Source of the DNA: Kitasatospora sp. NA04385 | Lineage (GTDB): Bacteria > Actinomycetota > Actinomycetes > Streptomycetales > Streptomycetaceae | Assembly: GCF_013364235.1 (NCBI RefSeq) | Contig: NZ_CP054919.1 | Coordinates: forward strand, 1,739,309 to 1,796,738 | Direction: 5' to 3' | Length of the DNA: 57,430 nucleotides | Part shown: in pieces, positions 22,696 through 49,602 of the stretch | Position numbering within the stretch: position 1 is the first letter of the stretch | Layout of the letters: every line of letters starts with the position of its first letter | Made by a program: the position numbers and the translations under genes | Notes under the pieces: model-generated | Told to the model about the DNA's origin: nothing | Seen by the model: the letters and a program-made list of their open reading frames with translations, nothing else | Databases searched by the model: none

Positions 22696-23505
22696 TCAGT
22701 GGCGCAGTTCCAGCGTGCAGCACTTGACGGCGCCGCCGGCCCGGAGCAGTTCGGTCAGGTCGACGCCGATCGGGGTGAAGCCGCGCTCGCGCAGCCGGTC
22801 GGCGAGGCGGACGGCGGCCTCCGGGAGGACGACGTTGGCGCCGTCGGAGACCGCGTTCAGGCCGAACACCCGGGCGTCGTCGGCGTCGGCGAGCACCGCG
22901 TCCGGGTAGAGGCGCTCCAGCACCGCGCGGGAGGGGGCGTCGAAGGCCGGCGGGTGGTACATGACCTCGGTGTCGCTGAGCACGGCGAGCGCGGTGTCCA
23001 GGTGGTAGTAGCGCGGGTCGACCAGCCGCAGGGTGACCACCTCGCGGCCGAGGAACTCCCGCGCCTCGGCGTGCGCGGCGGTCTCGGTGCGGAAGCCGGT
23101 GCCGGCCAGGACGCGCTCGCCGGCCACCAGCAGGTCGCCCTCGCCCTCGTTGACGTGCTCGGCGTCCTTGACCCGCCAGCCGCGCTCGCGGAACCAGTCG
23201 GCGTACGCCGGGCCCTCGGCGGCCCGTTCGGGGTGCCGGAAGCGGGCGCCGAGCACCCGGCCGTCCAGCGTGGTGGCGCCGTTGGCGGCGAACACCATGT
23301 CCGGCAGGCCGGGCAGCGGTTCGATCAGCTCGACGGTGTGGCCGAGGCGCCGGAACAGCGCGTGGAGCTGGTCCCACTGGGCGAGGGCGGTGCCGGTGTC
23401 GGTGGGCTTCGCCGGGTCCATCCACGGGTTGATGGAGTAGTCGACGGTGAAGTGCGCGGGCCGGCACATCAGGTAGTGGCGCGGGGTGGCGGTTCGCGGC
23501 GACAC
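22696..23505 (-). CDS. ddaH: Dimethylarginine dimethylaminohydrolase (amidinotransferase superfamily)
   Basis: The 269-residue enzyme hydrolyses methylated arginines to citrulline and methylamines. Family marks are MCRPAHFTVDYSINPWMD near the N-terminus, FAANGATTL, the catalytic histidine in RYYHLDTALAVL and the nucleophile cysteine in AVKCCTLELRH at the C-terminus. The GTG at 23505 is chosen because AAGGAG lies nine bases upstream; the frame is open further but without a site. It is co-directional with and 86 bases downstream of the FAD oxidoreductase. It could be the distal gene of the neighbouring cluster or an ordinary metabolic gene. Confidence 0.9.
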   Translation of the reverse strand: MSPRTATPRHYLMCRPAHFTVDYSINPWMDPAKPTDTGTALAQWDQLHALFRRLGHTVELIEPLPGLPDMVFAANGATTLDGRVLGARFRHPERAAEGPAYADWFRERGWRVKDAEHVNEGEGDLLVAGERVLAGTGFRTETAAHAEAREFLGREVVTLRLVDPRYYHLDTALAVLSDTEVMYHPPAFDAPSRAVLERLYPDAVLADADDARVFGLNAVSDGANVVLPEAAVRLADRLRERGFTPIGVDLTELLRAGGAVKCCTLELRH

Positions 23506-24947: not shown

Positions 24948-25282
24948 GGGGCGACCTCTTCGATGGTGGAGGTGCCGGTGTCGGGCTGGGGGCCGTAGCG
25001 CTCCCAGGTCTCGTGCAGGCGGATGCGGCCGTCGGCGGTGAGGGTGGGGGTGTTGTGGGTGCGGCCGCAGACGATCCGGCCGTCGGTGAGGACGAAGGTG
25101 TAGCCCATGGCGAGGGTGCCGTCGGGCTGGCGGGTGCCGGCGGTCCAGCCGCGCTGGATGGTGCCGCCGGTGACCTCGCCCCAGACCAGGTCGCCCTGCT
25201 GGTGGTAGACGGCGACGGTGCGGTGGTCGCCGTCGGGGGCGTGGAAGCGGCGGCCCTCGTAGTCGAGGTGGCGGGGGTTCAC
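24944..25282 (-). CDS. Small NAGS-like protein (family often named n-acetylglutamate synthase)
   Basis: The 112-residue protein starts MNPRHLDYEGRRFHAPDG and carries VWGEVTGGTIQRGW and GRIRLHETWERYG, the pattern of a small beta-rich family that databases often label n-acetylglutamate synthase. I know of no firm demonstration of that activity, and no GNAT motif is seen. Start and stop both overlap neighbours (GTGA with the cupin gene, GTGA with the FAD oxidoreductase), so it is translated as part of the cluster. The role is unknown. Confidence 0.7.
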   Translation of the reverse strand: MNPRHLDYEGRRFHAPDGDHRTVAVYHQQGDLVWGEVTGGTIQRGWTAGTRQPDGTLAMGYTFVLTDGRIVCGRTHNTPTLTADGRIRLHETWERYGPQPDTGTSTIEEVAP

Positions 25283-25629
25283 GCCTGCCACCAGATGGCG
25301 TAGTAGGCGAAGTCGTCGTCGTGCGGGTTGGCGACGGCGTGGTCGGTGTCGGCGGGGAGCAGGACGAGGTCGCCGGCGGCGACGGGGTGGCCGGTGCCGC
25401 CGGTGCGGATCTCGCCGCGGCCGCTGATGCAGATGAACAGCTCGCGTTCGGTGTGCTGGTGGGTGTCGGTGAGGTCGCCGGGGCGCAGGACGCACCAGGC
25501 GCCGTGGAAGGGGGCGGTCAGTTCGCCCCAGGGGTGCAGGAGCTTGAGGTCGAGGCCGTGGGCGCGTTCGAGCCCTTCGGGTTCCTGGCGGCGGATCACC
25601 AGGCCGGGCGGCAGGCCGGTTTCGGGCAT
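25279..25629 (-). CDS. Stand-alone cupin protein, candidate cupin half of a split hydrazine synthetase
   Basis: The 116-residue single-domain cupin has the metal motif in DTHQHTERELFICISGRGE (His57 and His59, then Glu63) and the second motif GDLVLLPADTDHAVANP with a histidine. In hydrazine synthetases such as Spb40 of the s56-p1 pathway, a cupin domain fused to a MetRS-like domain carries out the N-N-forming rearrangement. Here the MetRS-like protein has no cupin, and this cupin is in the same co-directional gene set. The link is inference; small cupins also act as isomerases or sensors. The ATG has GGAG eight bases upstream, and the gene lies 30 bases after the response-regulator gene. Confidence 0.75.
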   Translation of the reverse strand: MPETGLPPGLVIRRQEPEGLERAHGLDLKLLHPWGELTAPFHGAWCVLRPGDLTDTHQHTERELFICISGRGEIRTGGTGHPVAAGDLVLLPADTDHAVANPHDDDFAYYAIWWQA

Positions 25630-25659
25630 GGCGGTGCTCCGTTCTGGGGGGGCGGTGGG

Positions 25660-26337
25660 TCAGCGGGCCGCGGCGGCGTGGCCGAGGCCGGCGTCCCGGG
25701 CGAGGACCAGGGCCTGGGCGCGGTCGGCGACGCCGAGCTTGCCGAGGATGTGGGAGATCCGGTTGCTGACCGTCTTGGAGGCGAGGGCGAGTTCCCGGGC
25801 GATGACGGTGTTGGAGCGGCCGGCGGCGAGGTGTTCGAGCACCTCGCGCTCGCGGATGCTGAGCTGCGGGAACGGGTAGCTGCGCGGGCGGGGGCCGGTG
25901 CCGATCAGGGTGCCGAGCCGGGCCGCGATGGTGCGGTCGAGGATGGCCTCGCCGGCGCCGACCGCGTGGATGCCGCGGACGATCTGGTCGGCGGTGGCGC
26001 GCTTGACCAGGTAGCCGCGGGCTCCGGCGTGGAAGGCGGCGGCGACGGCCTTGTCGTCGTCGAGGGTGCTGAAGACCAGGACGCCGGTCTCGGGGGTGAG
26101 GCGCAGGATCTGGCTGATCATCCGCATGCCGGCGGCCTCGTCCAGGTGCGGGTCGAGGACCAGGACGTCGGGCCGGTGCCGGGAGGTGGCGGCGAGCACT
26201 TCTCCGGTGGTGCCGGCCTCGTCGACCACGGTGGCGGCGCCGGTGGCCTCGACCATGGAGCGGACGCCCTGCCGGACGGCGGGCTGGGCGTCGGCGAGCA
26301 GCACGGTCAGCGGCGTGGTGATCCGGTGCTGGTTCAT
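25660..26337 (-). CDS. NarL/LuxR-family response regulator, orphan
   Basis: The 225-residue protein has an N-terminal receiver (phospho-acceptor Asp in DVLVLDPHLDE, conserved Lys in GYLVKRA) and a C-terminal LuxR-type HTH (LSIREREVLEHLAAG, then TVIARELALASKTVSNRISHIL). No sensor kinase gene is near, so it may be an orphan. It sits inside the biosynthetic gene set, and I infer it is the pathway-specific regulator. The ATG at 26337 follows a GAGGGG run closely. A frame extension upstream exists but lacks a ribosome binding site. The 129 bases upstream are markedly AT-richer than the surroundings and carry a palindrome. Confidence 0.88.
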   Translation of the reverse strand: MNQHRITTPLTVLLADAQPAVRQGVRSMVEATGAATVVDEAGTTGEVLAATSRHRPDVLVLDPHLDEAAGMRMISQILRLTPETGVLVFSTLDDDKAVAAAFHAGARGYLVKRATADQIVRGIHAVGAGEAILDRTIAARLGTLIGTGPRPRSYPFPQLSIREREVLEHLAAGRSNTVIARELALASKTVSNRISHILGKLGVADRAQALVLARDAGLGHAAAAR

Positions 26338-26431
26338 CGTCCCCTCGCGGCGTCCGGTGGTGCGGCGGTGGTGCGGTGCGGTGTGGCGCGCGGAGTCGAT
26401 CACCGGTAGTGATGATTCCGTTACCTCATCA

Positions 26432-26442
26432 TGATCTGATCA
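26432..26442. promoter_or_regulatory. Palindrome in the AT-rich gap upstream of the response regulator gene
   Basis: TGATC-T-GATCA is a perfect 5+5 palindrome in the unusually AT-rich interval 26404-26460. A weaker pair GATGA/TCATC lies beside it. It is a candidate regulator-binding site or promoter region for the response regulator and the downstream cupin operon. Confidence 0.35.
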
Positions 26443-26466
26443 ATCCTGCGCCTCAAGTGTGCAATG

Positions 26467-28194
26467 TCATGCAGGAGTTGGCAGATGTGACGGTTGGGGC
26501 GCCGCTTCCCGGGCCTTGCGCATGATCTCCTCGCGGCCGCGCCAGTGCGACCAGAAGGCGCCGGTGTAGCCCAGGCCGCCGAGGCTGGTGAGGAAGGGGT
26601 TGTCGGCGTAGTTGTTGTCGTGCTCGCTCATGCCCTCGACGGTGGGCAGCATGACCCGGTGGTGGTCGGCCGGGTCGATCAGCGCCCACAGGTCGGTGAC
26701 GGCGCCGTGCCAGCGCTCGGCGGGGTCGGCGGCGCGGGCCGGGTCGGGCAGCAGGCCGGGCGAGAAGTAGCAGACCAACCGGAAGTTGCCGTGCTCGTCG
26801 AACATGAACTGCCGCTCGTACTCGGCCGGGGAGGAGCACATCCGCAGCGGCTTGAGCACGATCGGGCCGTCGGCGGTGTTGGACTGCAGGCCGGGGACGG
26901 TGCGCACGCCCGCGCACTGCTCGGCGAGGTCCATGCCCATCGGGGTGTACGGGAACAGCCGCAGGCCGAGCGAGAAGCCGGTGACGGTGGCGTCCAGCGC
27001 CATGAAGGCGTCCACGCAGGCGCGGACCGTCTCGGGGGTCTCCCCCGGCATGCCGAACAGCGCCTCGACCATGGTGAGGATGCCGCGTTCGTGGCACAGC
27101 CGCACCAGCCGCTCGGTGTCGGCGAAGGTGTAGTAGGTGCCGCCCTTCTCGGTGACCTTCCAGCCGCTGAGCACCTCGGGGCGGATGTGGTCGCTGCCGA
27201 CGTTGACGCCCCGGCAGCCGGCCGCGGCCAGCAGGTCGGCGAACTCCTCGTCGAACGGGCTGGGTTGGCAGTAGACCCACAGCCGCAGCAGGTTCAGCGG
27301 GTTGTCCGGGTCGGCGTGCCGGCGGCGGACGATCTCCCGCAGCAGGTTCTTGGCGTGCGCGATCGAGAGGTTGAACTCGCTGTCGGTGGTGTGCTGGTCC
27401 AGGATGCCCTGCGCGGCCAGCGACTCCATCTCGTCGACCACCGAGGCGAGTTCGCGCTGCCCGTAGCGGGTGCCCTTGGCGTCCGGTTCGACGCAGTGCG
27501 AGCAGCGGTAGGCGCAGCCGTTCTTGGTCAGGATGGAGCCGAGGCCGCCGCGCCGGTAGTACTCCAGGTTGTCGACCCGGCGCGGCACGCCGGAGCGCCG
27601 CCGGTAGACCGAGAGCTGGTCGACCTGCCACACCCGGGGCTCGAACTGGCCGGTGGGCTCGGCGGGCAGCGCCTTGCCGTGGCGGACGGTGAGCACCGCG
27701 GGTGGCACCCGGACGGCGCCCTGCCCGGTGTTGCGGATCAGGCCGGGGATGCCCGCCGTGTCGCGGCCCTCGGCGACCGCGGCGGCCAGCTCGCAGAGGA
27801 TCTTCTCGCCGGGGCCCTTCACGCCGTAGTCGATGCCGAAGTACTCGACCAGCGCGAACGGCATGGTGGAGAAGCCGATCCCGCCGCCGACCACGGGCGC
27901 GTCGGTGAGCCGGCGGATCTCGGTGATGATCTCCAGGTGCTCGCCGACGAACGGGCGCTGCTCGAAGGCGTACACGGTGTCGGTGTTGCGGACGGTCACC
28001 CCGACCAGCACCGGGGAGCGTTCGGCGAAGTACTCGTGCAGGCAGGTCTTCCAGTCGTCGCGGTGGAAGGTCAGGTCGAGCACCTCCACCTCGAAGCCGT
28101 CGTCCTCCAGCGCGGTGGTGAGCACGTCGAGGGCGTACGGGGCGATCGGCGGATGCACCTTGTTCGGGTTGACCAGCAGGACGAGTCTGCTCAT
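26467..28194 (-). CDS. Radical SAM protein with B12-binding-like N-terminal domain
   Basis: The 575-residue protein has a Rossmann-like N-terminal domain of the B12-binding type (residues 1-150, with VVGGGIGFSTMPF and YGVKGPGEKILCELA) and a radical SAM core. Cys227, Cys231 and Cys234 (NGCAYRCSHC) bind the 4Fe-4S cluster. The cobalamin His motif DxHxxG is not visible, so cobalamin use is uncertain. The fold class includes methylases and ring-forming or rearranging enzymes. The ATG has a strong AAGGGAGG ribosome binding site. It lies between the duplicated flavoenzyme genes and the regulator, all leftward with short gaps, and is expected to tailor the cluster product. The C-terminal 150 residues match no domain I know. 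Confidence 0.82.
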   Translation of the reverse strand: MSRLVLLVNPNKVHPPIAPYALDVLTTALEDDGFEVEVLDLTFHRDDWKTCLHEYFAERSPVLVGVTVRNTDTVYAFEQRPFVGEHLEIITEIRRLTDAPVVGGGIGFSTMPFALVEYFGIDYGVKGPGEKILCELAAAVAEGRDTAGIPGLIRNTGQGAVRVPPAVLTVRHGKALPAEPTGQFEPRVWQVDQLSVYRRRSGVPRRVDNLEYYRRGGLGSILTKNGCAYRCSHCVEPDAKGTRYGQRELASVVDEMESLAAQGILDQHTTDSEFNLSIAHAKNLLREIVRRRHADPDNPLNLLRLWVYCQPSPFDEEFADLLAAAGCRGVNVGSDHIRPEVLSGWKVTEKGGTYYTFADTERLVRLCHERGILTMVEALFGMPGETPETVRACVDAFMALDATVTGFSLGLRLFPYTPMGMDLAEQCAGVRTVPGLQSNTADGPIVLKPLRMCSSPAEYERQFMFDEHGNFRLVCYFSPGLLPDPARAADPAERWHGAVTDLWALIDPADHHRVMLPTVEGMSEHDNNYADNPFLTSLGGLGYTGAFWSHWRGREEIMRKAREAAPQPSHLPTPA

Positions 28195-28229
28195 CGGGGT
28201 TACCTCCCTTGGGGGTTGGCGGCGGGTGG

Positions 28230-29399
28230 TCAGACCAGGCCGAGGCTGATGCCGAACTCGGGTTCGGCGCCCAGCAGGTAGGCCCCGGCGGACTGCAGGA
28301 TGCGGTCCTGGGCGACCAGGTGCTGGGCGAGGACGGTGGTGTCGCGCAGCCAGCGGTCCATCGGCGAGCTGCGGTTGATCGACCAGGTCTGCAGCAGGTC
28401 GTAGGTGCGGGCGACGATCGTCCGGGCGCTGCGGAAGGCGTGCAGCCAGGACAGCGGCGAGGCGGCGCGCTCGGTCGGGGTGAGGTCGTCCAGGGTGCCG
28501 CCGGCCGCCAGCACCGCCCACTGGCGGCGCATCGCGCCGTACACGCCCTCCCGGACGGCGTTGAACTCGGCCTCCAGGCGGGCCAGTTCGGTCTGCACCC
28601 GCCAGCTGTCGGCCCAACTGCGCCCGGCCATCCGGTCGTAGCGGGTGGTGGCGACCTCGCGGGCGTGGTCGAGCGCGGCCCGGGCCACCCCGAGCGGGAC
28701 GCCGCACATCGCCCGGGTGAAGGAGTCCGGCTGGGCCAGCGGGCCGGGGCGGCCCTGCGGGGTGGCGAAGGTGTAGGTGTGCTCCTCCGGGACGAACACG
28801 CCGTCCATGGTGTAGTCGCAACTGCCGCTGCCGCACAGGCCGGTGGTGTCCCAGTTGTCGATCACCTCGACCTGCTCGCGGGGCACCAGGAACTGCCGGG
28901 AGTCGTGCCGGTGCTTGCTGCCGGGGGCGGCCCAGGGCTCGCCGCCGTCGTAGATGAAGGCGCCGGAGGTCACCCAGTCGGCGTGCTTGACGCCAGAGCC
29001 GAACGACCAGCGGCCGCTGAGCCGGAAGCCGCCGGGGACGCGCTCGGCCCGGCCGGAGGGCTGGAGCAGGCCGGCCACCACCAGGTCGAGGCGCGGGAAG
29101 ACCTCCTTGGCGACGGTCTGGTCCAGGAAGTTGGCGTAGATGCCGGTGTTGGCGCCGATCACGGCGCACCAGGCGGCCGAGGCGTCGCCGTACGCCAGGG
29201 CCTCCACCACCTCGGTCTGCTCCATCGAGGTCAGGCCGGGGCCGCCCCACTCGGGGCCGTAGCACATGCCGAACACGCCGGTGGCGCGCAGCAGTTCGAC
29301 CACCTCGGCGGGCAGCGTGCGGTTGGCCTCGATCTCCGGGGCCCTCTCCCGCAGCAGCGGCGCCAACTCCCGGGCGCGGCGCAGGATCTCCGTTGTCAT
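28230..29399 (-). CDS. Acyl-CoA-dehydrogenase-like flavoenzyme, copy 1 (group D monooxygenase type)
   Basis: The 389-residue protein has the acyl-CoA dehydrogenase fold with the variant typical of flavin-dependent group D monooxygenases and N-oxidising enzymes, such as the segment GGFRLSGRWSFGSGVKHADW near residue 125 and WDTTGLCGSGSCDYTM. It lacks an obvious catalytic Glu context of true acyl-CoA dehydrogenases. In an N-N bond cluster it could oxidise a hydrazine to azo, diazo or hydroxylated forms, using FADH2 from an unlinked reductase. It is 38 bases downstream of its paralogue and has an AAGGAG site 11 bases before the ATG. It shares long identical stretches with copy 2. Confidence 0.82.
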   Translation of the reverse strand: MTTEILRRARELAPLLRERAPEIEANRTLPAEVVELLRATGVFGMCYGPEWGGPGLTSMEQTEVVEALAYGDASAAWCAVIGANTGIYANFLDQTVAKEVFPRLDLVVAGLLQPSGRAERVPGGFRLSGRWSFGSGVKHADWVTSGAFIYDGGEPWAAPGSKHRHDSRQFLVPREQVEVIDNWDTTGLCGSGSCDYTMDGVFVPEEHTYTFATPQGRPGPLAQPDSFTRAMCGVPLGVARAALDHAREVATTRYDRMAGRSWADSWRVQTELARLEAEFNAVREGVYGAMRRQWAVLAAGGTLDDLTPTERAASPLSWLHAFRSARTIVARTYDLLQTWSINRSSPMDRWLRDTTVLAQHLVAQDRILQSAGAYLLGAEPEFGISLGLV

Positions 29400-29437
29400 G
29401 CTGGTCACTTCTCCTTCTGCGTCGGGTGGTCGGCGGG

Positions 29438-30643
29438 TCAGCGGTCCAGGCCGAGGCTGATCCGGAACAGCGGGGGGCGGCCGAGCAGGTAGGCGCCGAC
29501 CGACTCCAGCACGGCGTCCTGGGCGGTCAGGTTCTGGCACATCACCGCGGTGTCGCGCAGCCAGCGGTCCATCGGCGAGCTGCGGTTGATCGACCAGGTC
29601 TGCAGCAGGTCGTAGAGCCGGGTGACGACGGCGCGGGAGGCCCGGAAGGCGTGCAGCCAGGCGAGCGGGGAGGCGGCGCGCTCGGCCGGGGTGAGGTCGT
29701 CCAGGGTGCCGCCGGCCGCCAGCACCGCCCACTGGCGGCGCGCCGCGCCGTACACGCCCTCCCGGGCCGCGTTGAACTCGGCCTCGCAGCTGGCGAGTTC
29801 GGTCTGCACCCGCCAGCTGTCGGCCCAACTGCGCCCGGCCATCCGGTCGTAGCGGGTGGTGGCGACCTCGCGGGCGTGGTCGAGCGCGGCCCGGGCCACC
29901 CCGAGCGGGACGCCGCACAGGGCGCGCATGAAGGAGTCCGGCTGGGCGAGCGGGCCCGGGGTGCCGCGGACCTCCCAGAAGGTGAAGGTGTGCTCGTCGG
30001 GGACGAACACGTCGGTCATGGTGTAGTCGCAACTGCCCGTCCCGCACAGGCCGGTGGTGTCCCAGTCGTCGAGCACCTCGACGGCGGAGCGCGGCACCAG
30101 GAACTGCCGGGAGTCGTGCGCGTGCGGGCTGCCGGGCTCGGCCCAGGGCTCGCCGTCCTGGAACAGGAAGGCCCCGGAGGTGACCCAGTCGCTGTGCCTG
30201 ATCCCGGAGCCGAACGACCAGCGGCCGCTGAGCCGGAAGCCGCCGGGGACGCGCTCGGCCCGGCCGGCCGGGGCGAGCACCCCGGCGGTGATCAGGTCCA
30301 GGCTCGGGTACACGTCCTTCACCACGGACTGGTACAGGAAGTTGGCGAGCAGCCCGCTGTTGGCGCCGATCACGCCGCACCAGGCGGCCGAGGCGTCGCC
30401 GTACGCCAGCGCCTCGACCACCTCCAACTGTTCGACGGAGGTGAGCTCGGGGCCGCCCCACTCGCGGGCGAAGCACATCCGGAACACGCCGGTGGCGCGG
30501 AGCAGTTCGACCACCTCGGCGGGCAGCGTGCGGTGGGCCTCGATCTCCGGGGCCCTCTCCCGCAGCACGGGGGCGATCTCCTTGGCCCGGCGCAGCACCT
30601 CGGCGGCGTCCTGGGGCGGTCCGGCCCAGCGCGCGGCGCTCAC
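29438..30643 (-). CDS. Acyl-CoA-dehydrogenase-like flavoenzyme, copy 2
   Basis: The 401-residue protein is a close tandem paralogue of the next gene. Both carry APEIEAxRTLPAEVVELL, the GGFRLSGRWSFGSG segment and one run of about 40 identical residues beginning GVPLGVARAALDHARE. Differences cluster in the N-terminal cap (FAREWGGPELTS versus YGPEWGGPGLTS) and around WEVRGTPG/FATPQGRPG, which may alter substrate choice. The GTG start overlaps the stop of the ATP-grasp gene (GTGA). The two copies may act on sequential intermediates or as a heteromer. Function is inferred from family and context only. Confidence 0.82.
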   Translation of the reverse strand: MSAARWAGPPQDAAEVLRRAKEIAPVLRERAPEIEAHRTLPAEVVELLRATGVFRMCFAREWGGPELTSVEQLEVVEALAYGDASAAWCGVIGANSGLLANFLYQSVVKDVYPSLDLITAGVLAPAGRAERVPGGFRLSGRWSFGSGIRHSDWVTSGAFLFQDGEPWAEPGSPHAHDSRQFLVPRSAVEVLDDWDTTGLCGTGSCDYTMTDVFVPDEHTFTFWEVRGTPGPLAQPDSFMRALCGVPLGVARAALDHAREVATTRYDRMAGRSWADSWRVQTELASCEAEFNAAREGVYGAARRQWAVLAAGGTLDDLTPAERAASPLAWLHAFRASRAVVTRLYDLLQTWSINRSSPMDRWLRDTAVMCQNLTAQDAVLESVGAYLLGRPPLFRISLGLDR

Positions 30644-31956
30644 CGGTCCACGTCCAGCAGCCCGGCGGGCATCGCGAACGGGGCCTCGGGGTCGGCGGGC
30701 CCGACCTCGGAGGTGACGGTGCGCACCAGCGCGGCGGCGGCGGCCAGGCGCTGTTCGCAGGCGGCGACGCTGTCGGCCTCGCAGACCACGAAGGAGTGCC
30801 GGGCCAGGTAGCCGCCGGGGGGCAGCCGCAGCACGGTACCGGGCGGGGCCATCGGGGCGGCGTGCAGCAGGCCGGGCGCGTCGCCGGGCTCCGGGAGGAC
30901 CAACTCGTCCAGGCGGCAGTCCTGTTCGGGGCAGCCGAAGCTGATCCCGGCCACCGCGGAGCGGCTCGGGGCGATCTCCGGGCGGCGGCCGGTGGCGACG
31001 TCGAACAGCACCTCGCCGGGTTCGATGCCGGTGGCGATCCGGCCGAGCAGCGGGATCAGGTCGCCGCCGAGCCGGCCGTTGACCTCGACGATCAGCGGGC
31101 CGCGCGGGGTGAGCCGCAGCTCGGTGTGGGTGATGCCGTCCTCGACGCCGAGCGCCCGGTGCGCGTCGGCGAGGTGGGCCAGCAGGGCGGGGTCGGCGAG
31201 CAGCGGGTCGGCGGCGTCGACGACGTGGCCGACCTCCTCGAAGTACGGCTCGTCGCTGCTGTACTTGCGGGCCAGGAACAGCGGCCGGTACTCGCCCTTG
31301 TGGACGGCGCCGTCGACGCTGATCTCCGGGCCGCCCGCGTACTCCTCGACGATCACGCTGGCCCGGTACGGCCCGGGGTCGACCCGGCTGGCGGACAGCG
31401 CGGTGCGGAACGCCTCGTCGAGCCCGTGCTCGTCGGCGGCGAAGACCACGCCGATGCTGGCGCCCATGGCGCGCGGCTTGAGCACCACCGGGTAGCCGAT
31501 CCGGGCGGCGGCGGCGCGGGCCTCGGCGAGGTCGGTGGTGAGCGCGAAGCCGGGCTGGCGCAGGCCGGCGGCGGTGAGCACGGTGCGGGTGCGCTCCTTG
31601 TCGCGCACGCCGCGCACGCCGCGCTCGGACAGGCCGGGGACGCCGAGCTCGGCGGCCAGCAGGCCGGCGTCCAGCACCAGCGGCTCGTCCCAGCAGAGCA
31701 GGCCGACGATGGTCCGGCGGGCGGCGATCTCCCGGACGGTGGCGTTCATGGTGGCGGTGTCGAAGACGTCGGCGACCACGATCTCGTCGAAGTACTCGCG
31801 CTGCCAGGTCGGCCGCAGGTTGTTGACCAGCAGCAGTTCCAGCCCGGCGGCGCGGGCCCGGCGGCTCATCGGGCCGACCAGGTACTCGCGGTACTCCTTC
31901 AGCCCGCTGCCGATCACCAGCAGGGTGCCCGGCGTTGTTTCCTGACGTTGCGTCAT
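30640..31956 (-). CDS. ATP-grasp ligase 1
   Basis: The 438-residue ATP-grasp protein joins a carboxylate to an amine through an acyl phosphate. The layout is classical: an N-terminal Rossmann-like part (TLLVIGSGLKEYREYL), the central nucleotide motifs GYPVVLKPRAMGASIGV and SVIVEEYAGGPEISVD, and the metal-binding LIVEVNGRLGGDLIP. The C-terminal domain is of the biotin-carboxylase/BtrJ-like style. It overlaps the second ATP-grasp gene (ATGA) and copy 2 of the flavoenzymes (GTGA). In this cluster it may attach an amino acid to the hydrazino acid or to its amine. The specificity is not readable. Confidence 0.88.
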   Translation of the reverse strand: MTQRQETTPGTLLVIGSGLKEYREYLVGPMSRRARAAGLELLLVNNLRPTWQREYFDEIVVADVFDTATMNATVREIAARRTIVGLLCWDEPLVLDAGLLAAELGVPGLSERGVRGVRDKERTRTVLTAAGLRQPGFALTTDLAEARAAAARIGYPVVLKPRAMGASIGVVFAADEHGLDEAFRTALSASRVDPGPYRASVIVEEYAGGPEISVDGAVHKGEYRPLFLARKYSSDEPYFEEVGHVVDAADPLLADPALLAHLADAHRALGVEDGITHTELRLTPRGPLIVEVNGRLGGDLIPLLGRIATGIEPGEVLFDVATGRRPEIAPSRSAVAGISFGCPEQDCRLDELVLPEPGDAPGLLHAAPMAPPGTVLRLPPGGYLARHSFVVCEADSVAACEQRLAAAAALVRTVTSEVGPADPEAPFAMPAGLLDVDR

Positions 31957-33236
31957 GATTCCTCCGCTGCTTGGGAGTCGAGGTCGAACCGGACCAGGGC
32001 GGCGGCCGCGTCGGCCAGCCGGCGGGCCTCGGCGGGGGTGTCGGCGCGGGTGGTGACGATGCCGACCCGGTCCCAGGAGCTGCGCAGTCCGGCGCTGCGG
32101 TGGCCGGCGGCGATGCCGACCACGGCGAGCTGCACGCCCTCGGCGGCGGCGGCCGCGTCCAGGCCGTGCACGGCGGTGACGGTGCCGGGCCGGCCGGGGG
32201 CCAGGAAGGCGGCGGCGGTGGCGCGTTCGGCCTTGGCGGGCAGCTCGCCGGTCGGCTCGCCGCGCATCAGGGCGTAGTAGGCGCGGGTGAGTTCGACCGG
32301 GTAGGCCGCCTCGATCAGGTCGGTGATGGAGTCACCGGGCAGCCGTCCGGCGCACTCCACCAGGACGGGGACGCCGTCGGCGAGGATCCACTCGCAGTGC
32401 AGCACGCCGGTGCCGAAGCCGACCGCGGCGGCCAGCCGTTCGGTCTCGGCGGCCAGCAACTCGTGCGTCTCGGTCGGGAGTTCGGCCGGGACGGTGTGCC
32501 CGGCCTCGATCGGGTACGGGCCGGGGTAGAGCAGCTTGCCGGTGGTGTTGGCGAACACCGGGCGGCCGTCGGCGACCAGCATCTCGACGCTGAACTCCGA
32601 CCCGGCGACGTACTGTTCGGCCAGCATGGCGGGCGCGATCGGCCGGTCCGGGACGAACACGCCCTCGTCCTGCGCCTGCCCGAACGCCCAGGCCGCGGCC
32701 ACCTCCTCGGGGGCGCGGACCACCCGGGTGCCGACCGAGGCCTGCCGGTTGGCGGGCTTGAGCACCACCGGGCCGGGGTGCCGGGCCATGAAGCCGGCCA
32801 GCGCGGCGGCGTCGGCGACCGGCTCGGAGGCCGGGTTGGCGATTCCGGCGGCCGCCGCGACCACCCGCAACTGGTGCTTGTCGCGCAGCAGTTGGGCGGC
32901 GCCCAGGCCGGCGCCGGGCAGCCCGTAGCGTTCGGCGAGCCGGGCCGCGAACGGCACCGCGTACTCGACGGCGGGGATCACCGCGACCGGGTCGAGCCCG
33001 GGGTGGGCGGCGAAGAAGGCGTCCGCGCGGCCGGGCAGGTGGTACTCCCACTCGATCAGGGCGCGGGCGAAGCCGATGCCCTCGACGGCCTCGGCGAGGT
33101 GCCGCTTGCGGGCGACGTCCGGCTCCTCCACGTAGACCACCGAGTCGGCGTCCTGGAAGGCGGCGACGGTGGCGACCGCGAAGGCCACGTAGCCGATGAT
33201 CAGCACCGGCCGCGGGCCGGTCGACGGGCCGTTCAT
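31953..33236 (-). CDS. ATP-grasp ligase 2
   Basis: The 427-residue protein is a second, clearly diverged ATP-grasp ligase (N-terminus RPVLIIGYVAFAVATVAAF). Nucleotide-binding segments are PGPVVLKPANRQASVGTRVV and MLAEQYVAGSEFSVEML, and the metal site is PVLVECAGRLPGDSITDL. The usual Glu-x-Asn of the metal site reads ECA here (E-C-A-G-R instead of E-V-N-G-R), worth checking for activity. The ATG at 33236 overlaps the MFS stop, and the stop overlaps the first ligase. Two ligases suggest two amide- or ester-forming steps without carrier proteins. Confidence 0.86.
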   Translation of the reverse strand: MNGPSTGPRPVLIIGYVAFAVATVAAFQDADSVVYVEEPDVARKRHLAEAVEGIGFARALIEWEYHLPGRADAFFAAHPGLDPVAVIPAVEYAVPFAARLAERYGLPGAGLGAAQLLRDKHQLRVVAAAAGIANPASEPVADAAALAGFMARHPGPVVLKPANRQASVGTRVVRAPEEVAAAWAFGQAQDEGVFVPDRPIAPAMLAEQYVAGSEFSVEMLVADGRPVFANTTGKLLYPGPYPIEAGHTVPAELPTETHELLAAETERLAAAVGFGTGVLHCEWILADGVPVLVECAGRLPGDSITDLIEAAYPVELTRAYYALMRGEPTGELPAKAERATAAAFLAPGRPGTVTAVHGLDAAAAAEGVQLAVVGIAAGHRSAGLRSSWDRVGIVTTRADTPAEARRLADAAAALVRFDLDSQAAEES

Positions 33237-34510
33237 ACGGTCTCTCCCACGGGGTCCTGGTCGGTGGCCGCTCCGGCGGCGGCGGTGCGCTGCTGCGCCC
33301 GGTGCTTGATGCCGTACACCGCGAGCACCCCGGCCAGGCCGTTGACCACGGCCATCAGCACCCAGAACCCGGCGTGCAGGTGCGTCCAGGCCCACACGCC
33401 GAACAGCGGTCCGACGGCCGAGGCCAGGCCGGCCGCGGCCTGCATGGTGGCCAGGTAGCGGGCCTTCGAGCCGTCCGGGAAGGTGGCCGGGTGGGCGAAC
33501 ATGCTGGGCCCGGCGATCATCAGCCCGCTGACCGCGAGCACCGCGCCGAACAGCACGAACGCCCCGGAGTGCACGGCCAGCCCGTAGGCGGCGAGGCCGA
33601 CCGAGTTGACCAGGTGGCCGACGCCGACCGCCAGGTAGGTGGGGATCCGGGTGATGTACGCGGTGATCTTCAGCTCGCAGGTGATCAGCACCAGCGAGGA
33701 GGCGGTGAGCACCGCGCTGTACAGCCAGGTCGGGTAGTCGTCGTGCACGATCTCCAGCGGCAGCGAGATCGAGGACTGCACGTAGGCGACCGTCCCGAGC
33801 ACCACCGCGGCCAGGTAGGCGAGGTAGGCCCGGTCGCGGAGCATCCGGGCGTACGCGGCCCGGCCGTCGGAGCGGCGTTCGGCCCTCGTCCGCGGCGCCG
33901 GCTCGGGCACCGCGTGCCGGGGCAGCAGCCGGTGGGCGAGCAGCGCGTACAGCAGGGTGGTGGCGCCGTCGATCCAGAACAGCAGGTCCCAGTCGAGCAG
34001 GATCACCCCGGCGGCGATCAGCGGGGCGAGCGCCGCGCCGGTGTTCAGGGCGATGCGCATCATCGAGAACGCCATCACGTGGTAGCGCTCCGGCATCAGG
34101 TCGCTGAGCAGCACCGCGGCGGCGGGCCGGTACGCCTGGGCGGCCAGGCCGGCCAGCGCGATCGTCACCAGCAGCACCGGGACCAGCCCCGGCCGGACCA
34201 GCAGCGGCAGCACCGCGACCAGCGGCGCCGAGCCGGCCATCGCCGCGACGATGGTGGCGCGCGCCCCGAACCGGTGGGTGATCTCCCCGCCGAGGACGGT
34301 GCCGAACACGGTGCCCAGGCTGTACGCGCCGAGCGCGAGGCCCGCGGTGCCGTCCGACAGGCCCTCGTGCGTCAGGTAGAGCACCAGGAAGGTCTGGACG
34401 AACGCGCCGAGCTGGTTGACCAGTACGCCGCCGAGCAGGTACCGGACGGTGGCCGGGGTGGCCCTGAGCGTGTCGAGGACGCCGATCGGGGGCCCGTCGT
34501 CGTCGGTCAT
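33233..34510 (-). CDS. MFS transporter, probable product exporter of the cluster
   Basis: The 425-residue protein has 11-12 membrane helices and MFS motif A-like loops (GGEITHRFGARATIVAAMAG near residue 75). The helices include VRYLLGGVLVNQLGAFVQTFLV in outline at the N-terminus and WVLMAVVNGLAGVLAVYGI at the C-terminus. The ATG overlaps the stop of the DAO-like gene, and the stop overlaps the ATP-grasp gene, so it is firmly embedded in the operon. By analogy with other small-molecule clusters it should export the product or confer self-resistance. The tail is polar and cytosolic. Confidence 0.88.
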   Translation of the reverse strand: MTDDDGPPIGVLDTLRATPATVRYLLGGVLVNQLGAFVQTFLVLYLTHEGLSDGTAGLALGAYSLGTVFGTVLGGEITHRFGARATIVAAMAGSAPLVAVLPLLVRPGLVPVLLVTIALAGLAAQAYRPAAAVLLSDLMPERYHVMAFSMMRIALNTGAALAPLIAAGVILLDWDLLFWIDGATTLLYALLAHRLLPRHAVPEPAPRTRAERRSDGRAAYARMLRDRAYLAYLAAVVLGTVAYVQSSISLPLEIVHDDYPTWLYSAVLTASSLVLITCELKITAYITRIPTYLAVGVGHLVNSVGLAAYGLAVHSGAFVLFGAVLAVSGLMIAGPSMFAHPATFPDGSKARYLATMQAAAGLASAVGPLFGVWAWTHLHAGFWVLMAVVNGLAGVLAVYGIKHRAQQRTAAAGAATDQDPVGETV

Positions 34511-35610
34511 GCCGCCTCCTTCACTGCCTTGGCGATGCGTTCCGCGACCAGCGGAGCGGTGGAGAACCCGCCGCCGCCGCACGCGGCGCGGGTCCACAGG
34601 CCCGGGGAGACCCGGGTGAGCAGCGGGCCGCCGGTGGCGGTGTCCGCGGTGTAGTGGCAGACCCGGACGCCGGCCACGGGGTAGCGCTCCAGGTCGGGCA
34701 GGACGCCCTCGGCGGCCAGCCGGTCCAGGTGGGGCCGCTGGTCCTCGCCGGTGCTGTCGGTGTCCGCGACGGGGCGGCACACCGTGTCGGAGCTGAGTTT
34801 GAGCAGGGTGCCGGCGCCGGGCGGCAGCACCCAGCCGCGGCCGGAGCGGCCGAGGCCGCCGGCGGCGGGCGCGTCGTCCCAGCGGTCGTCCCCGGCGGGG
34901 CGGCGCAGGTAGAGCATGGTCTGCCGGTGCAGGGTGACGGGGCTGTCGGCGAGCCGGCGCGTCCAGGGGCCGCCGGCCAGCAGGGCGAGGTCGCCGCGGA
35001 GCACCTCGCCGGTGTCCAGCACGATCCGGCCGGAGCCGGTGAACACCGAGCGGACGGTGCTGTGCGGGCGCAGCACCACGCCGGGCCGGGCGGTGAGCCA
35101 GCGGGCGGCGGCGTGCAGCACCCGGTCGGCGAGCAGGACGCCGCCGGTGAGTTCGCGCACCCCGACGGTGCCGGGCGGCAGCCCCAGCGGCGGGAGCCGG
35201 TCGGCCGGCGGCAGGTCGACGGGGACGCCGGCCTTGTCGGCCTCGGCGAGCAGTTCGTCGAGGCGTTCGGCGGGGTGGGCGGTGAGCGTGCCGACCCGGC
35301 GGTACAGCGGGGTGCCGAACAGGGCCTCCAGGTCCTGCCAGTGGCGGTGCGCGTCGAGCCGGCGGGCGGTGCCGTCGGGGTCGCCGGGCAGCAGGGTGCG
35401 GATGGCGCGGTGCTGGTCGTGCGAGGTGGCGTCCGGGTTGGGCAGCGGGCCGCGTTCCAGCACGGTGACCCGGTGGCCGGCCCGGGCGCAGGCGACCGCG
35501 GTGAGCAGTCCGGTGACGCCCGCGCCGACCACCAGGACGTGGGCGGCGGCGCTGCCCGCGTCCACCGCGACGGCACTGCCCGCCGCCGCGGGCCCGGTGG
35601 CACCGCTCAC
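34507..35610 (-). CDS. D-amino-acid-oxidase-like FAD oxidoreductase (hydrazino-acid releasing type)
   Basis: The 367-residue flavoprotein has the DAO-fold FAD motif VLVVGAGVTGLLTAVACARAG in outline near residue 25, the LERGPLPNPDATSHDQHR segment and a C-terminal FAD-contact region (RAACGGGGFSTAPLVAERIA). In the s56-p1 type pathway the corresponding enzyme (Spb39) oxidatively cleaves the lysine-hydrazino-acid adduct, giving the free hydrazino acid and 2-aminoadipate semialdehyde. The GTG start overlaps the stop of the MetRS-like gene (GTGA), exactly the company expected. The N-terminal 20 residues are Ala/Gly-rich and non-conserved. Other DAO-family reactions cannot be excluded. Confidence 0.85.
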   Translation of the reverse strand: MSGATGPAAAGSAVAVDAGSAAAHVLVVGAGVTGLLTAVACARAGHRVTVLERGPLPNPDATSHDQHRAIRTLLPGDPDGTARRLDAHRHWQDLEALFGTPLYRRVGTLTAHPAERLDELLAEADKAGVPVDLPPADRLPPLGLPPGTVGVRELTGGVLLADRVLHAAARWLTARPGVVLRPHSTVRSVFTGSGRIVLDTGEVLRGDLALLAGGPWTRRLADSPVTLHRQTMLYLRRPAGDDRWDDAPAAGGLGRSGRGWVLPPGAGTLLKLSSDTVCRPVADTDSTGEDQRPHLDRLAAEGVLPDLERYPVAGVRVCHYTADTATGGPLLTRVSPGLWTRAACGGGGFSTAPLVAERIAKAVKEAA

Positions 35611-37154
35611 CGTCCGCCGCCGCGCGCTCTGGTCGTCAGCCGGGGCAGGGCGCGGGGGCGGACGGTGGTGGCGGTGTGCTCGGCGGGGATGGCGTCGTCG
35701 GGCAGCGCCTCGGCGGCCAGGTCGACCAGCAGCGGGGCGGCGCAGCGCAGGAACAGGTCGAGTTCGTGCCAGAAGTCGCCGGCGTCGTCGTCGGTGACCT
35801 CCCAGCGGTCGAGCCGGCCGAGCTGCTCGGTGAGGGTGGCGGCCGCGCTGCTGAGGCTGAAGCGGCGCGGGTTCAGGGCGGCGGCGAAGCGCTCGGCGCT
35901 CAGCGCGGCGGCGTGCCGGGAGCGGGCGCTGACGGGCAGCGGGCCGCGGTCGAGGTGGGCCTCGGCCTTGGCGGCGACCCGGTTCCAGGGTTCGACCAGG
36001 CGCTGTCCGCAGACCCGGTCCATGGCGGCGCGGGTGAAGTTGGTGCGCTGGTAGTCGGGGCCGGTGGCGGCCAGGTAGTAGCGGGCCAGGTCGCGCGGGA
36101 CTTCGGCGGTGAGCTGGCGCCCGGTGACGACGTGGCCGCGGCTGGTGGAGAACTTGTCGCTGTCGAGCTCGTAGAACTCGTTGGTGACGAAGTGCGCGGG
36201 CAGGGCGAGTCCGCCGAGGGCGAGCAGCATGGCGGTGCCGGCCAGGGCGAAGGCGAAACTGGCGTCGGAGCCGAAGAAGTAGACGACTTCGGGGCCGGCC
36301 TCCAGCGCCCAGTGGCGTTCCTCGTCGCCGGGGACCTCGCCGCGCGACTCGGCGGCCAGCGCGACGGCGTGCAGGCTCCAGGCCACCGTCTCGGTGTCGG
36401 AGTACAGCACCTGGCCGGGGGTCTCGGCGAACGGGGCGGGGATGCCCCAGTCGATGGGCAGGGTGATCGGGTAGTCGGGCAGCCGGCGGGCCATCAGCTC
36501 CTCGACGAGCTGGGCGAGCCGGGGCCGCATGGTGCCGGCGAGCCGGGCGAAGTAGCTGGCCAGCGCGGGGCGGTGCTCCTCCAGCGGCAGTACCAGGACC
36601 TCCTTCTCCCGCAGTTCGACCGGGAGTTCGGGGTACCGGGTGGAGCGCGGGTCGAGCAGTTCGCCGGAGGCGATCCAGTGGCCGCAGCTCTCGCACAGCC
36701 CGGCGCAGCCCTCGGCCAGGCAGACCGGGCAGCCGCCGCGGACGTACGCGTCGGTGAGGTACTCGCCGGTGTCCGGCAGGTACGGGAACTTCACCTTGCG
36801 CAGCCTCAAGTGCCCTTCGCCGTGCAGCCGTTCGAAGAAGGTGCGGACGGTCTTGAGGTAGCGCTCGTCGAAGCGGACGAAGCCGTCGGGGACGATGCCG
36901 GCCGCGGCGAGGGTGGCCTCGACCTGTTCGGCGGCGCGCTGCCGCAGTTCCTCGGGCTGTTCGCCGAGCCGGCGGGCGGTGGTGACGATGTAGTTCTGGG
37001 TGAAGTGCACGCCGGTGCCGAACAGGGTGTCGCGGCCGGTGGCGCGGGCGTAGCGGGCGCACACGTCGGCGGACAGGAACGGGCCGGCCAGGTGGCCCAG
37101 GTGCAGGTCGCCGTTGGCGGTGGGGCCGGGGGCGATCACCAGCAGCGCGGCCAT
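35607..37154 (-). CDS. Methionyl-tRNA-synthetase-like ligase, candidate hydrazine synthetase subunit
   Basis: The 515-residue class I synthetase-like protein keeps a HIGH-type motif H18-L-G-H21 (GDLHLGHL), a KMSKS-type motif K334-F-S-T-S338 and a zinc knuckle with Cys142, Cys145, Cys154 and Cys157 (plus Cys150). It is not the housekeeping MetRS: its motifs are degenerate, and it sits between a lysine N-hydroxylase and a DAO-like oxidase with overlapping ends. In known hydrazine synthetases a MetRS-like domain adenylates an amino acid (glycine in Spb40) and esterifies it to N6-hydroxylysine before cupin-driven N-N formation. Here the cupin domain is absent. The amino acid used is unknown. Its start shares one base with the hydroxylase stop. 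Confidence 0.85.
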   Translation of the reverse strand: MAALLVIAPGPTANGDLHLGHLAGPFLSADVCARYARATGRDTLFGTGVHFTQNYIVTTARRLGEQPEELRQRAAEQVEATLAAAGIVPDGFVRFDERYLKTVRTFFERLHGEGHLRLRKVKFPYLPDTGEYLTDAYVRGGCPVCLAEGCAGLCESCGHWIASGELLDPRSTRYPELPVELREKEVLVLPLEEHRPALASYFARLAGTMRPRLAQLVEELMARRLPDYPITLPIDWGIPAPFAETPGQVLYSDTETVAWSLHAVALAAESRGEVPGDEERHWALEAGPEVVYFFGSDASFAFALAGTAMLLALGGLALPAHFVTNEFYELDSDKFSTSRGHVVTGRQLTAEVPRDLARYYLAATGPDYQRTNFTRAAMDRVCGQRLVEPWNRVAAKAEAHLDRGPLPVSARSRHAAALSAERFAAALNPRRFSLSSAAATLTEQLGRLDRWEVTDDDAGDFWHELDLFLRCAAPLLVDLAAEALPDDAIPAEHTATTVRPRALPRLTTRARGGGR

Positions 37155-38440
37155 CAGCGGCCGCCCGCCGCGACGGTGGCCAGGCCGTGGCGCTCCAGCA
37201 GGTCGCCGGTGATGTCGCGGGCCCGGTGGGCGAGCACGCTGATCAGCGAGTCGGCGATGCCGTGGGTGGCCTCGTTGACGCCCTGCAGGTACAGCGCGGC
37301 GTCGGTGCCGGCGCCCAGGTCGACCCGGTAGTCGCGGCTGACGGTGACCTCGGGCAGCCCGGCCTTCTCGGTCAGCTCCCGGACCAGGGCCGGCATCCGG
37401 CCGTCGTAGCCGGTGCCGAGCAGGACCAAGTCGCAGCGCTGCTCGGTGACCTTGCCGGTGCGCCGGTCGCGCAGGTCGAGGACGACCTCGCCGTCCTCCT
37501 CGCGGGCGGCGAGCACCTCGGTCATCGGGCGGACCTCGGCCCGGCCGGTGCCGATCATCTTCTCCCGGTAGAGCAGCATGTAGAGCTCGTCGAGGAACGG
37601 CGGGGCGAGCGCCGCGTAGTTGGTGAACCGCATCTCGTCGAGCAGCTGGGCGCGGGTCTCGGCGGGGGCGTCGAAGAACTCGTCGACGAAGGACGGGTAG
37701 AACAGCTCGTTGACGAACTTGCTGGTCTGGTAGTTCTGCAGGCCGATCGAGCGGACCAGCATGGTGACGGTGGAGTTCGGCAGGTTCTCGTACAGCGCCA
37801 TGAACATCTCGGCGGCGCTCTGCGCGCCGCCGATCACCACGGTGCGCAGCGGGGCGTCCTTGTCGACGGCGTTGATCCGGCTGCGGAAGCGGGCGCTGTG
37901 GATGACCTTCTCGGCGGGCAGGTCGGCGAAGACCGCGGGGATGTGCATGTCGCGGCCGGCGCCGACGACCAGGTCGCGGCAGCGGATGGTGTCGCCGTCG
38001 GCGAGGGTGACCTGCCAGCCGGCCAGCTTGCCGTCGGCGTCGTGCCTCGGTTCGGCGGAGACGACCTTGGCGTCGTAGCGGATGCGCACCTTCTCCAGCG
38101 AGCGGGCCACCCACTGGAGGTAGTCGGAGAACTCCCAGCGGTGCGGGTGGAAGGTGCCCAGGTTGATGAACTGGTCCAGCCGGTCGTGCTGGTGCAGGAA
38201 GTTGAGGAACGAGAAGCGGCTGCGCGGGTCGCGCAGGGTCACCAGGTCCTTCAGGAAGGAGACCTGGCTGCGGGCCCAGGGCATCAGCAGGTCGCGCTGC
38301 CACTTGATGTCCGGGGCCTGTTCCAGCAGCAGGGTGCGCTCGGCCAGTTCGGCCGATCCGCTCTCCTCGATCGCGGCGGCGAGGGCCAGGTTCGCCGGTC
38401 CGGCGCCGATCGCCAGTACGCCCACCTCTAGGTCAGCCAC
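37154..38440 (-). CDS. L-lysine N6-monooxygenase (IucD/SidA-type FAD/NADPH hydroxylase)
   Basis: The 428-residue N-hydroxylating monooxygenase has the FAD motif IGAGPANLALA (residues 11-21), the NADPH motif VVIGGAQSAAEMF (about 201-213) and the C-terminal LLGTGYDGRMP. The family hydroxylates lysine or ornithine side-chain amines; the coupled genes favour lysine to N6-hydroxylysine. It is the first gene of the cluster. The GTG at 38440 has a GAGGGGG site five bases upstream, although the frame is open far beyond. A siderophore role is possible for this family alone, but no siderophore synthetase is nearby. The MetRS-like and DAO-like genes that overlap downstream argue for hydrazine formation. 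Confidence 0.9.
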   Translation of the reverse strand: MADLEVGVLAIGAGPANLALAAAIEESGSAELAERTLLLEQAPDIKWQRDLLMPWARSQVSFLKDLVTLRDPRSRFSFLNFLHQHDRLDQFINLGTFHPHRWEFSDYLQWVARSLEKVRIRYDAKVVSAEPRHDADGKLAGWQVTLADGDTIRCRDLVVGAGRDMHIPAVFADLPAEKVIHSARFRSRINAVDKDAPLRTVVIGGAQSAAEMFMALYENLPNSTVTMLVRSIGLQNYQTSKFVNELFYPSFVDEFFDAPAETRAQLLDEMRFTNYAALAPPFLDELYMLLYREKMIGTGRAEVRPMTEVLAAREEDGEVVLDLRDRRTGKVTEQRCDLVLLGTGYDGRMPALVRELTEKAGLPEVTVSRDYRVDLGAGTDAALYLQGVNEATHGIADSLISVLAHRARDITGDLLERHGLATVAAGGR

Positions 38441-49577: not shown

Positions 49578-49602
49578 CCGGTCCTCTGCTACGACTGGCC
49601 GC

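Follow-up and report, generated by a model that had tools for sequence, protein, structure and literature searches.

A Kitasatospora gene cluster that pairs a predicted split hydrazine synthetase with a tryptophan C2-methyltransferase and may build on 2-methyltryptophan

Introduction

Three neighboring genes of Kitasatospora sp. NA04385 raise the question of which molecule is built around a nitrogen-nitrogen (N-N) bond at this locus, and of which amino acid enters it. The genes lie in a 57,430-nucleotide stretch (the window) at positions 1,739,309-1,796,738 of an 8.40-Mb single contig (NZ_CP054919.1) and encode a flavin N-hydroxylase (PF13434), a protein resembling methionyl-tRNA synthetase (MetRS; PF09334) and a DAO-like flavoprotein (PF01266). 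An earlier reading based on the DNA letters (the sequence-only reading) had recognized these families in this order and proposed that they form a hydrazine-making core of exactly the families known from s56-p1 biosynthesis. Here we find that the trio (34507-38440) is one end of a cluster of 14 genes (22696-38440, about 16 kb), all on the minus strand with intergenic gaps of -4 to 86 bp. By its sequence, this cluster carries genes for the two halves of a split hydrazine synthetase and for the tryptophan C2-methyltransferase TsrM, and its product is likely an undescribed hydrazine-containing small molecule. That the 14 genes make a hydrazine-bearing pseudopeptide, with 2-methyltryptophan as the amino acid likely activated by the synthetase, is a reading that we favor with not quite even confidence.

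Results

The MetRS-like protein carries the motifs LHLGHL (residues 17-22) and KFSTS (residue 334) and a Cys-rich knuckle from residue 142. As the sequence-only reading had suggested, the protein was placed in a tree, where it stands apart from ordinary MetRS: a branch with a Shimodaira-Hasegawa-like approximate likelihood ratio test (SH-aLRT) support of 99 separates it from the two housekeeping MetRS of its own genome, with which it shares 26-27% identity. The latter, encoded at 4.753 and 2.988 Mb, pass the cut-off of a curated MetRS model (336 bits), whereas the MetRS-like protein scores 155 bits. Among solved structures, 9L8V, the C-terminal domain of PyrN, is its nearest relative in both sequence and fold (177 bits, versus 95 for the best E. 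coli MetRS row); the two libraries title this entry differently, one as "methionine-tRNA ligase" and the other as "PyrN C-terminal domain in complex with L-glutamyl-sulfamoyl-adenosine". The AlphaFold model of the MetRS-like protein is weak (pLDDT 71) and therefore served for the fold search only, and not for modeling of the pocket.

A fused N-terminal cupin was ruled out, as HLGH is found at residue 18 of the MetRS-like protein versus 137-146 in didomain relatives, and the cupin is encoded by a gene of its own that the sequence-only reading had not listed. This cupin matches RHS1 (5UQP) by sequence (E 8.1e-5). Its ligands H57, H59, E63 and H97 have the same spacing as those of PyrN (His50, His52, Glu56 and His90) and RHS1 (Asp63, His65, Glu69 and His103) (PMC8664883). 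Among 81 aligned cupins (82 were listed from the surveyed loci and one was dropped), the four ligand columns hold His in 77 and Asp in 4, His in 81, Glu in 81, and His in 80 with one gap. The cupin model (pLDDT 89.9) finds its best fold matches in 4RD7 and 4MV2 (TM 0.86-0.87) and a poorer one in RHS1 5UQP (TM 0.65, root-mean-square deviation 15). In the window, the cupin gene is about 10 kb away from the MetRS-like gene; in relatives L046 and L047, it immediately precedes it. Since split hydrazine synthetases are already on record (PMC8664883; PMC11705231), the split architecture is not new. With a non-housekeeping MetRS-like protein bearing HxGH and KFSTS, a cupin with its metal ligands and a linked amine N-hydroxylase, the locus very probably encodes a functional hydrazine synthetase, and the earlier proposal of an N-N-forming core is upheld at the level of sequence by the tree, the PyrN match and the cupin.

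A second split synthetase occurs in the same genome at 7.92-7.94 Mb (hydroxylase, cupin, MetRS-like protein and ATP-grasp ligase) beside nonribosomal peptide synthetase (NRPS) genes. This arrangement also occurs at locus L055, and both loci carry a gene that reads as diaminopimelate-decarboxylase-like.

The radical SAM protein of the earlier gene list was identified as TsrM. It scores 1093 bits against TIGR04428 (tryptophan 2-C-methyltransferase; cut-off 500) and is identical to the crystallized enzyme 6WTE at 548 of 574 positions (95%). Furthermore, the TsrM of L037, a locus of the same genus and cluster type, is identical to 6WTE over all 574 residues, indicating that the crystallized enzyme comes from this cluster type; we take 6WTE and 6WTF to be KsTsrM of Kitasatospora setae. 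The open-licence literature that we searched yielded no description of the native pathway of the 6WTE enzyme. Arg69, Glu273 and the CX3CX2C motif, with roles as described in PMC8992657, are all kept in the window TsrM. In our judgement, 2-methyltryptophan is almost certainly made, and the routes to it and to the hydrazine probably converge on one product.

Among 394 genomes sampled from the class, 15 further genomes bear TsrM, all from one other family (guessed to be Micromonosporaceae). In the 11 of these 15 that were examined, no hydrazine gene of this set was found near TsrM (57-60% identical), and TsrM was therefore rejected as a general marker of hydrazine clusters. In 11 stretches (L074-L084) of the same guessed family, TsrM homologues of 57-60% identity adjoin, or lie near, a gene whose L074 copy encodes a beta-eliminating lyase of PF01212 (tryptophanase/tyrosine phenol-lyase type). 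This gene was recognized by its N terminus in 10 of the 11 stretches, the exception being L077, where it was not called. Such a pairing would suit a route to 2-methylindole. Resistance through a second tryptophanyl-tRNA synthetase was also considered and rejected, as the two such genes above the curated cut-off (at 3.048 and 2.655 Mb) are both unlinked to the cluster.

To describe the conservation of the cluster, 70 genomes of the genus were searched, including that of NA04385. Ten have a full-length MetRS-like gene (93-100% identical); more distant copies occur in G062 (75%), in G013 and at a second locus of G035 (58-59%). The gene order recurs in seven close stretches of the genus (L037-L042 and L045), in line with the synteny comparison called for earlier. 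As exceptions, the second flavin monooxygenase is seen only as its paralogue in the best-hit table for L037, L038 and L042, and the L045 stretch stops inside the berberine-bridge-enzyme-like (BBE) gene, before the hydrolase. Two close relatives also have broken MetRS-like genes, with a frame break and an in-frame stop that may reflect decay or sequencing error (L017/L042 of G008 and L019/L045 of G035).

A wider genome scan gave 79 loci, 77 of them with gene tables, of which 70 encode a MetRS-like protein of at least 47% identity and are called the family loci. Their gene counts (Table 1) apply to flanks of at most 10 kb, some loci being shortened, in a set selected by the MetRS-like protein. 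The recurrent gene order and the pairing of hydroxylase and MetRS-like protein in 70 of 77 loci show that the grouping is not due to chance. Three architectures were distinguished using markers named by profile from one representative each. TsrM marks 20 loci in Kitasatospora, Actinacidiphila, Streptomyces, Lentzea, Actinokineospora, Kutzneria and an unclassified actinobacterium. A kynurenine 3-monooxygenase (KMO)-like protein accompanied by a DUF6875 protein marks nine, seven of them in Amycolatopsis. The third architecture is marked by a flavin reductase (20 loci) and/or a phosphoenolpyruvate (PEP)-mutase-family protein (27 loci). None of the KMO-like, flavin reductase and PEP-mutase markers was found near the core genes of the 20 TsrM loci. 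Among solved structures, the KMO-like protein matches kynurenine 3-monooxygenase (227 bits), and its best NCBIfam match is VioC (166 bits, cut-off 760). Two flavin monooxygenases are present in 19 of the 20 TsrM loci (not in L105) and in none of the other 50, 14 of which show no such gene within the flanks. The flavin reductase gene follows the BBE gene in 20 relatives devoid of TsrM and directly precedes a flavin monooxygenase gene in 11.

A further family (L049-L054), with MetRS-like proteins 40-42% identical, has the hydroxylase, cupin and ATP-grasp genes, mostly the 112-aa protein and, in three of six loci, the hydrolase. The hydroxylase gene is duplicated in eight TsrM clusters (L043, L096, L097, L100-L102, L145 and L165), the two copies of L043 being near-identical.

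A link between synthetase and tryptophan methylation is suggested by the amino-acid pocket. In Staphylococcus aureus MetRS, Asp51 holds the methionine amine, and the pocket is closed off by Trp237 and Tyr14 (PMC9071491); these being taken in the order Asp51, Trp237 and Tyr14, the aligned residues of the MetRS-like protein are H50, D253 and T12, respectively. The pair H50/D253 is found in all 21 TsrM rows (20 loci and the window), H50/H253 in 9 of 9 KMO-like rows, and Q50/N253 in 30 of 30 flavin-reductase/PEP-mutase rows, such that residue 253 matches the marker gene in all 60 marker-bearing rows (the window and 59 loci). Asp and Trp are kept at sites 50 and 253 in azaserine-type (azs, 4/4), triacsin-type (tri, 1/1) and group C (6/6) proteins. 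Eleven rows devoid of a marker were kept apart; three have H/D, one H/H, five Q/N, and L142 and L148 have Q/R and Q/S, respectively. The MetRS-like protein of Kutzneria buriramensis (L105) falls in the KMO clade (SH-aLRT 95 and 87 in two trees), yet its locus carries TsrM and its residue 253 is Asp. An approximately unbiased (AU) test against a single clade of TsrM loci (p 1.6e-6) was not used, as truncated loci with no visible TsrM sit inside the group and make the low p-value meaningless. In our judgement, it is slightly less likely than not that the amino acid activated by the synthetase derives from tryptophan, 2-methyltryptophan being the probable one.

The s56-p1 comparison was examined through four loci of azaserine type (L174, L176-L178) and one of triacsin type (L175), which we assigned by comparing their gene order with Table 1 of PMC10445470, rather than through the Spb38-40 sequences themselves. 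The hydroxylase shares 27-29% identity with those of L174, L175, L176 and L178. It is separated from them by a branch of SH-aLRT 99 in a quick tree with several long branches flagged, and lies on the side of the solved ornithine/lysine (siderophore-type) hydroxylases, among the 3S5W, 4B63-type, KtzI and MbtG rows. Its nearest solved match is ornithine 5-monooxygenase 3S5W (272 bits), followed by the lysine enzyme MbtG (214) and KtzI (208). These matches suggest that it acts on ornithine or lysine at the side-chain amine and do not decide between the two. The DAO-like protein matches that of L174 with an E value of only 9.7e-6; values exceed 1 for L175 and L176, and L177 and L178 gave no match. 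Hence, the likeness to s56-p1 holds at the level of Pfam families and fails at that of lineage, since the azs/tri hydroxylase lineage, the didomain synthetase with its Asp/Trp pocket and the AzsM/Tri27-type DAO are all absent from the cluster.

Several other genes would complete a pathway (Table 1). The guanidino-group hydrolase, which was not in the earlier gene list, scores 441.6 bits against the NCBIfam dimethylargininase model (cut-off 300), and its nearest solved protein is Sll1336 (185 bits), which we take to be the arginine dihydrolase ArgZ. The protein has an Asn at the position of ArgZ Asn71; eight copies of another subtype share this Asn. At the site following the catalytic His, arginine deiminases are reported to have Asp, and dimethylarginine dimethylaminohydrolases (DDAHs) to have Lys (PMC11659421). 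The window protein and 30 further aligned copies read H-L-D (H-x-D, not H-x-K), the gene call of L051 being devoid of the C-terminal motif. The hydrolase, which also occurs within related clusters, may turn arginine into ornithine or citrulline. The two acyl-CoA-dehydrogenase-like proteins (ACADa and ACADb) are nearest to flavin-dependent oxygenases, namely Rv3094c, followed by 3-HSA hydroxylase and XiaF, and ACADa is presumably a "group D" flavin monooxygenase. The substrates and order that we propose below for the ACAD, BBE and ATP-grasp steps are predictions.

Table 1. Genes of the 14-gene cluster, with positions in the window. Family loci, number of the 70 family loci with the gene; the count for the flavin monooxygenase is entered at ACADa.
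Predicted product	Coordinates	Strand	Family loci	Evidence
Guanidino-group hydrolase, arginine dihydrolase/DDAH type	22696..23505	-	17	NCBIfam dimethylargininase; Sll1336 match; H-x-D motif
BBE-like FAD oxidase	23592..24947	-	44	PF01565 and PF08031
112-aa protein	24944..25282	-	35	No Pfam match; 4-bp overlap with each neighbor
Standalone zinc-type cupin, putative second half of split hydrazine synthetase	25279..25629	-	46	PF07883; RHS1 5UQP match; metal ligands
Response regulator, LuxR/GerE type	25660..26403	-	23	PF00072 and PF00196
TsrM, cobalamin/radical-SAM tryptophan C2-methyltransferase	26467..28194	-	20	TIGR04428; 548/574 versus 6WTE
ACADa, flavin-dependent monooxygenase of acyl-CoA-dehydrogenase fold	28230..29408	-	56	Nearest solved protein Rv3094c
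ACADb, paralogue of ACADa	29438..30643	-		80% identity to ACADa over 385 aa
ATP-grasp ligase 1, L-amino acid ligase type	30640..31917	-	59	PF13535; nearest solved protein BL00235 (3VOT)
ATP-grasp ligase 2 with LAL_C2 domain	31953..33236	-	40	PF13535 and PF18603
Major facilitator superfamily (MFS) transporter, probable exporter	33233..34510	-	52	PF07690
DAO-fold FAD oxidase, putative hydrazine C-N cleavage	34507..35565	-	67	PF01266, E 1.4e-32
Standalone MetRS-like protein, putative first half of split hydrazine synthetase	35607..37154	-		PF09334, E 8.2e-59; tree; PyrN domain 9L8V
Flavin N-hydroxylase, probably of ornithine or lysine side-chain amine	37154..38440	-	70	PF13434, E 1.4e-87

The neighbors named by the sequence-only reading (two ATP-grasp ligases, two acyl-CoA-dehydrogenase-like enzymes, a B12/radical SAM protein and an MFS transporter) are all present. 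Its description of the trio as three overlapping genes is accurate for the hydroxylase and MetRS-like genes (1 bp) and not for the DAO-like gene, which lies 41 bp further on with the chosen start. Similarly, its statement that polyketide synthase (PKS) genes are missing is true of the 14 genes and not of the window, where a type III PKS gene lies at 49954-51039, 11.5 kb from the cluster, in a segment (46961-51573) that also encodes a UbiA-type prenyltransferase, a protein kinase and, after the PKS, a small hydrophobic protein. At the left edge of the cluster stands a convergent KatG gene. To the right, 255 bp away, a secreted-looking protein with no Pfam family has counterparts in five of the seven close stretches; L042, L045 and the 75%-identical cluster of G062 gave no match. 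Squalene/hopene-cyclase-like and prenyl-synthase-like genes read from the sequence at 390-6833 suggest a hopanoid locus.

Discussion

Taken together, these genes suggest the following pathway. TsrM would add a methyl group to C2 of tryptophan, as shown for other TsrM enzymes. The flavin hydroxylase, whose family is clear from its sequence, would act on the side chain of ornithine or lysine and turn its amine into a hydroxylamine, and the arginine-hydrolase-like enzyme would supply ornithine from arginine. The MetRS-like protein would adenylate the partner amino acid, likely 2-methyltryptophan, and transfer it to the hydroxylamine oxygen, whereupon the separate zinc cupin would rearrange the ester, with formation of the N-N bond between the alpha-amine and the nitrogen of the side chain. 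This two-step mechanism is reported for PyrN and RHS1 (PMC8664883), and the identity of the partner amino acid is our proposal. The DAO-fold oxidase would then break a C-N bond and release an alpha-hydrazino acid; the two ATP-grasp ligases may form amide or hydrazide linkages; oxidation of the indole or the hydrazine may fall to the BBE oxidase and the pair of flavin monooxygenases; and the MFS protein would export the product. A narrower version, which we consider doubtful, posits a family of synthetases that take a tryptophan-derived amino acid in place of glycine or glutamate. Here, the alpha-nitrogen of 2-methyltryptophan from TsrM would be joined to N5-hydroxyornithine, and the resulting alpha-hydrazino-2-methyltryptophan would seed a pseudopeptide assembled by enzymes other than NRPS; in sister clusters, a KMO-like enzyme would take the place of TsrM, along with a matching change of one pocket residue. 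The KMO/VioC-like accessory enzyme of that sister architecture, also of a tryptophan-pathway type, speaks for the use of tryptophan.

A number of observations weigh against the favored reading. L142 and L148, with other letters at residue 253, fit no class. Furthermore, about three changes on the tree suffice to explain both residue 253 and architecture, so that their match does not represent many independent events. PyrN, solved with a glutamyl-adenylate analogue, also has no pocket Trp, so that loss of Asp/Trp means "not azaserine-like" rather than "tryptophan", and loss of the amine-binding Asp could point to an unusual acid. The DAO is not close to those of azs/tri type, and the cupin is visible in only 46 of the 70 family loci within the flanks. 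The supply of ornithine would be wrongly assigned if the hydrolase is, as the curated model says, a dimethylargininase.

Part of this evidence would suit a synthetase that activates another side-chain amino acid, for example one that is glutamate-like or not made by the cluster, with 2-methyltryptophan entering through the ATP-grasp ligases only. PyrN, the nearest solved relative, uses glutamate (PMC8664883), and the core is kept in architectures devoid of TsrM; however, residue 253 tracks the TsrM or KMO-like gene, and we regard this alternative as improbable. Slightly less improbable is the route of the s56-p1 pathway, in which N6-hydroxylysine and glycine would give hydrazinoacetate, to be joined by an ATP-grasp ligase to 2-methyltryptophan through a hydrazide or amide. 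The Pfam families equal those of Spb38, Spb39 and Spb40, and ATP-grasp and MFS genes adjoin the trio in azaserine clusters too (PMC10445470). Conversely, the hydroxylase, the DAO and the MetRS-like protein all fall outside the azs/tri lineages, the Asp/Trp pocket is lost, and the 14 genes include no carrier protein, adenylase or GNAT, unlike azaserine clusters. Given the other lineages of hydroxylase and DAO and the unlike pocket, hydrazinoacetate is in our judgement the less likely product; both it and N6-hydroxylation of lysine, as proposed earlier, are unproven.

The position of the hydroxylase, close to 3S5W and grouped with 4B63-type, KtzI and MbtG rows, would also suit a hydroxamate siderophore or siderophore-like locus, an outcome that the sequence-only reading had linked to a nearby siderophore synthetase. 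The tree half of that description applies and the synthetase half does not: the only IucA/IucC of the genome is at 5.59 Mb, the nearest NRPS condensation domains are at 0.61 and 2.97 Mb, and none lies near the window (1.74-1.80 Mb). Moreover, the hydroxylase has a MetRS-like neighbor in all 70 family loci, although these were chosen by that partner. A siderophore locus was ruled out on this context and is very improbable. An ordinary or drug-resistant MetRS with unrelated neighbors, suggested by the PF09334 match and by several database copies named methionine--tRNA ligase, is barely conceivable in view of the curated score, the tree, the replaced methionine pocket and the conserved cluster.

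Among the titles and abstracts of open-licence literature in the first rows of large listings, none reports this cluster or links 2-methyltryptophan to a hydrazine. For the 6WTE TsrM, a reference structure for cobalamin/radical-SAM methylation, the cluster supplies a genomic setting and a likely role, and it would tie tryptophan C2-methylation to N-N bond formation. It also outlines a cluster family of three architectures and 70 actinobacterial loci whose core genes include neither NRPS nor PKS, and residue 253 offers a one-residue test of amino-acid choice in hydrazine synthetases. The amino acids named for such synthetases in the available part of PMC11705231 are glycine, alanine, serine, glutamate and tyrosine, with tryptophan not among them.

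The closest known systems are PyrN of pyrazomycin and RHS1 of Rhodococcus jostii, which share with the window the MetRS-like adenylating half, the zinc cupin half, and the cupin ligands with their spacing; the Rhodococcus pair is likewise split. The window differs from both in its MetRS-like protein, which forms a clade of its own with the H50/D253 pocket, in the distance between its two halves and in its other partner enzymes. The s56-p1 (Spb38/39/40), azaserine, triacsin and N-nitroglycine pathways have the Pfam families of the hydroxylase, DAO and MetRS-like/cupin proteins in common with the window, and azaserine clusters also share the adjoining ATP-grasp and MFS genes; compared with azs/tri-type loci, the synthetase of the window is split, its pocket is another, and carrier protein, adenylase, GNAT and NRPS are all missing. 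The TsrM of thiostrepton and 6WTE are enzymes of the same type as the window TsrM, which sits in a hydrazine cluster with no thiopeptide gene among its 14. Finally, the albofungin pathway likewise has separate genes for the MetRS-like protein, cupin and lysine hydroxylase (Afn8, Afn9 and Afn18); unlike the window, it is a polyketide pathway, and the available part of its description mentions no TsrM or ATP-grasp pair (PMC11705231).

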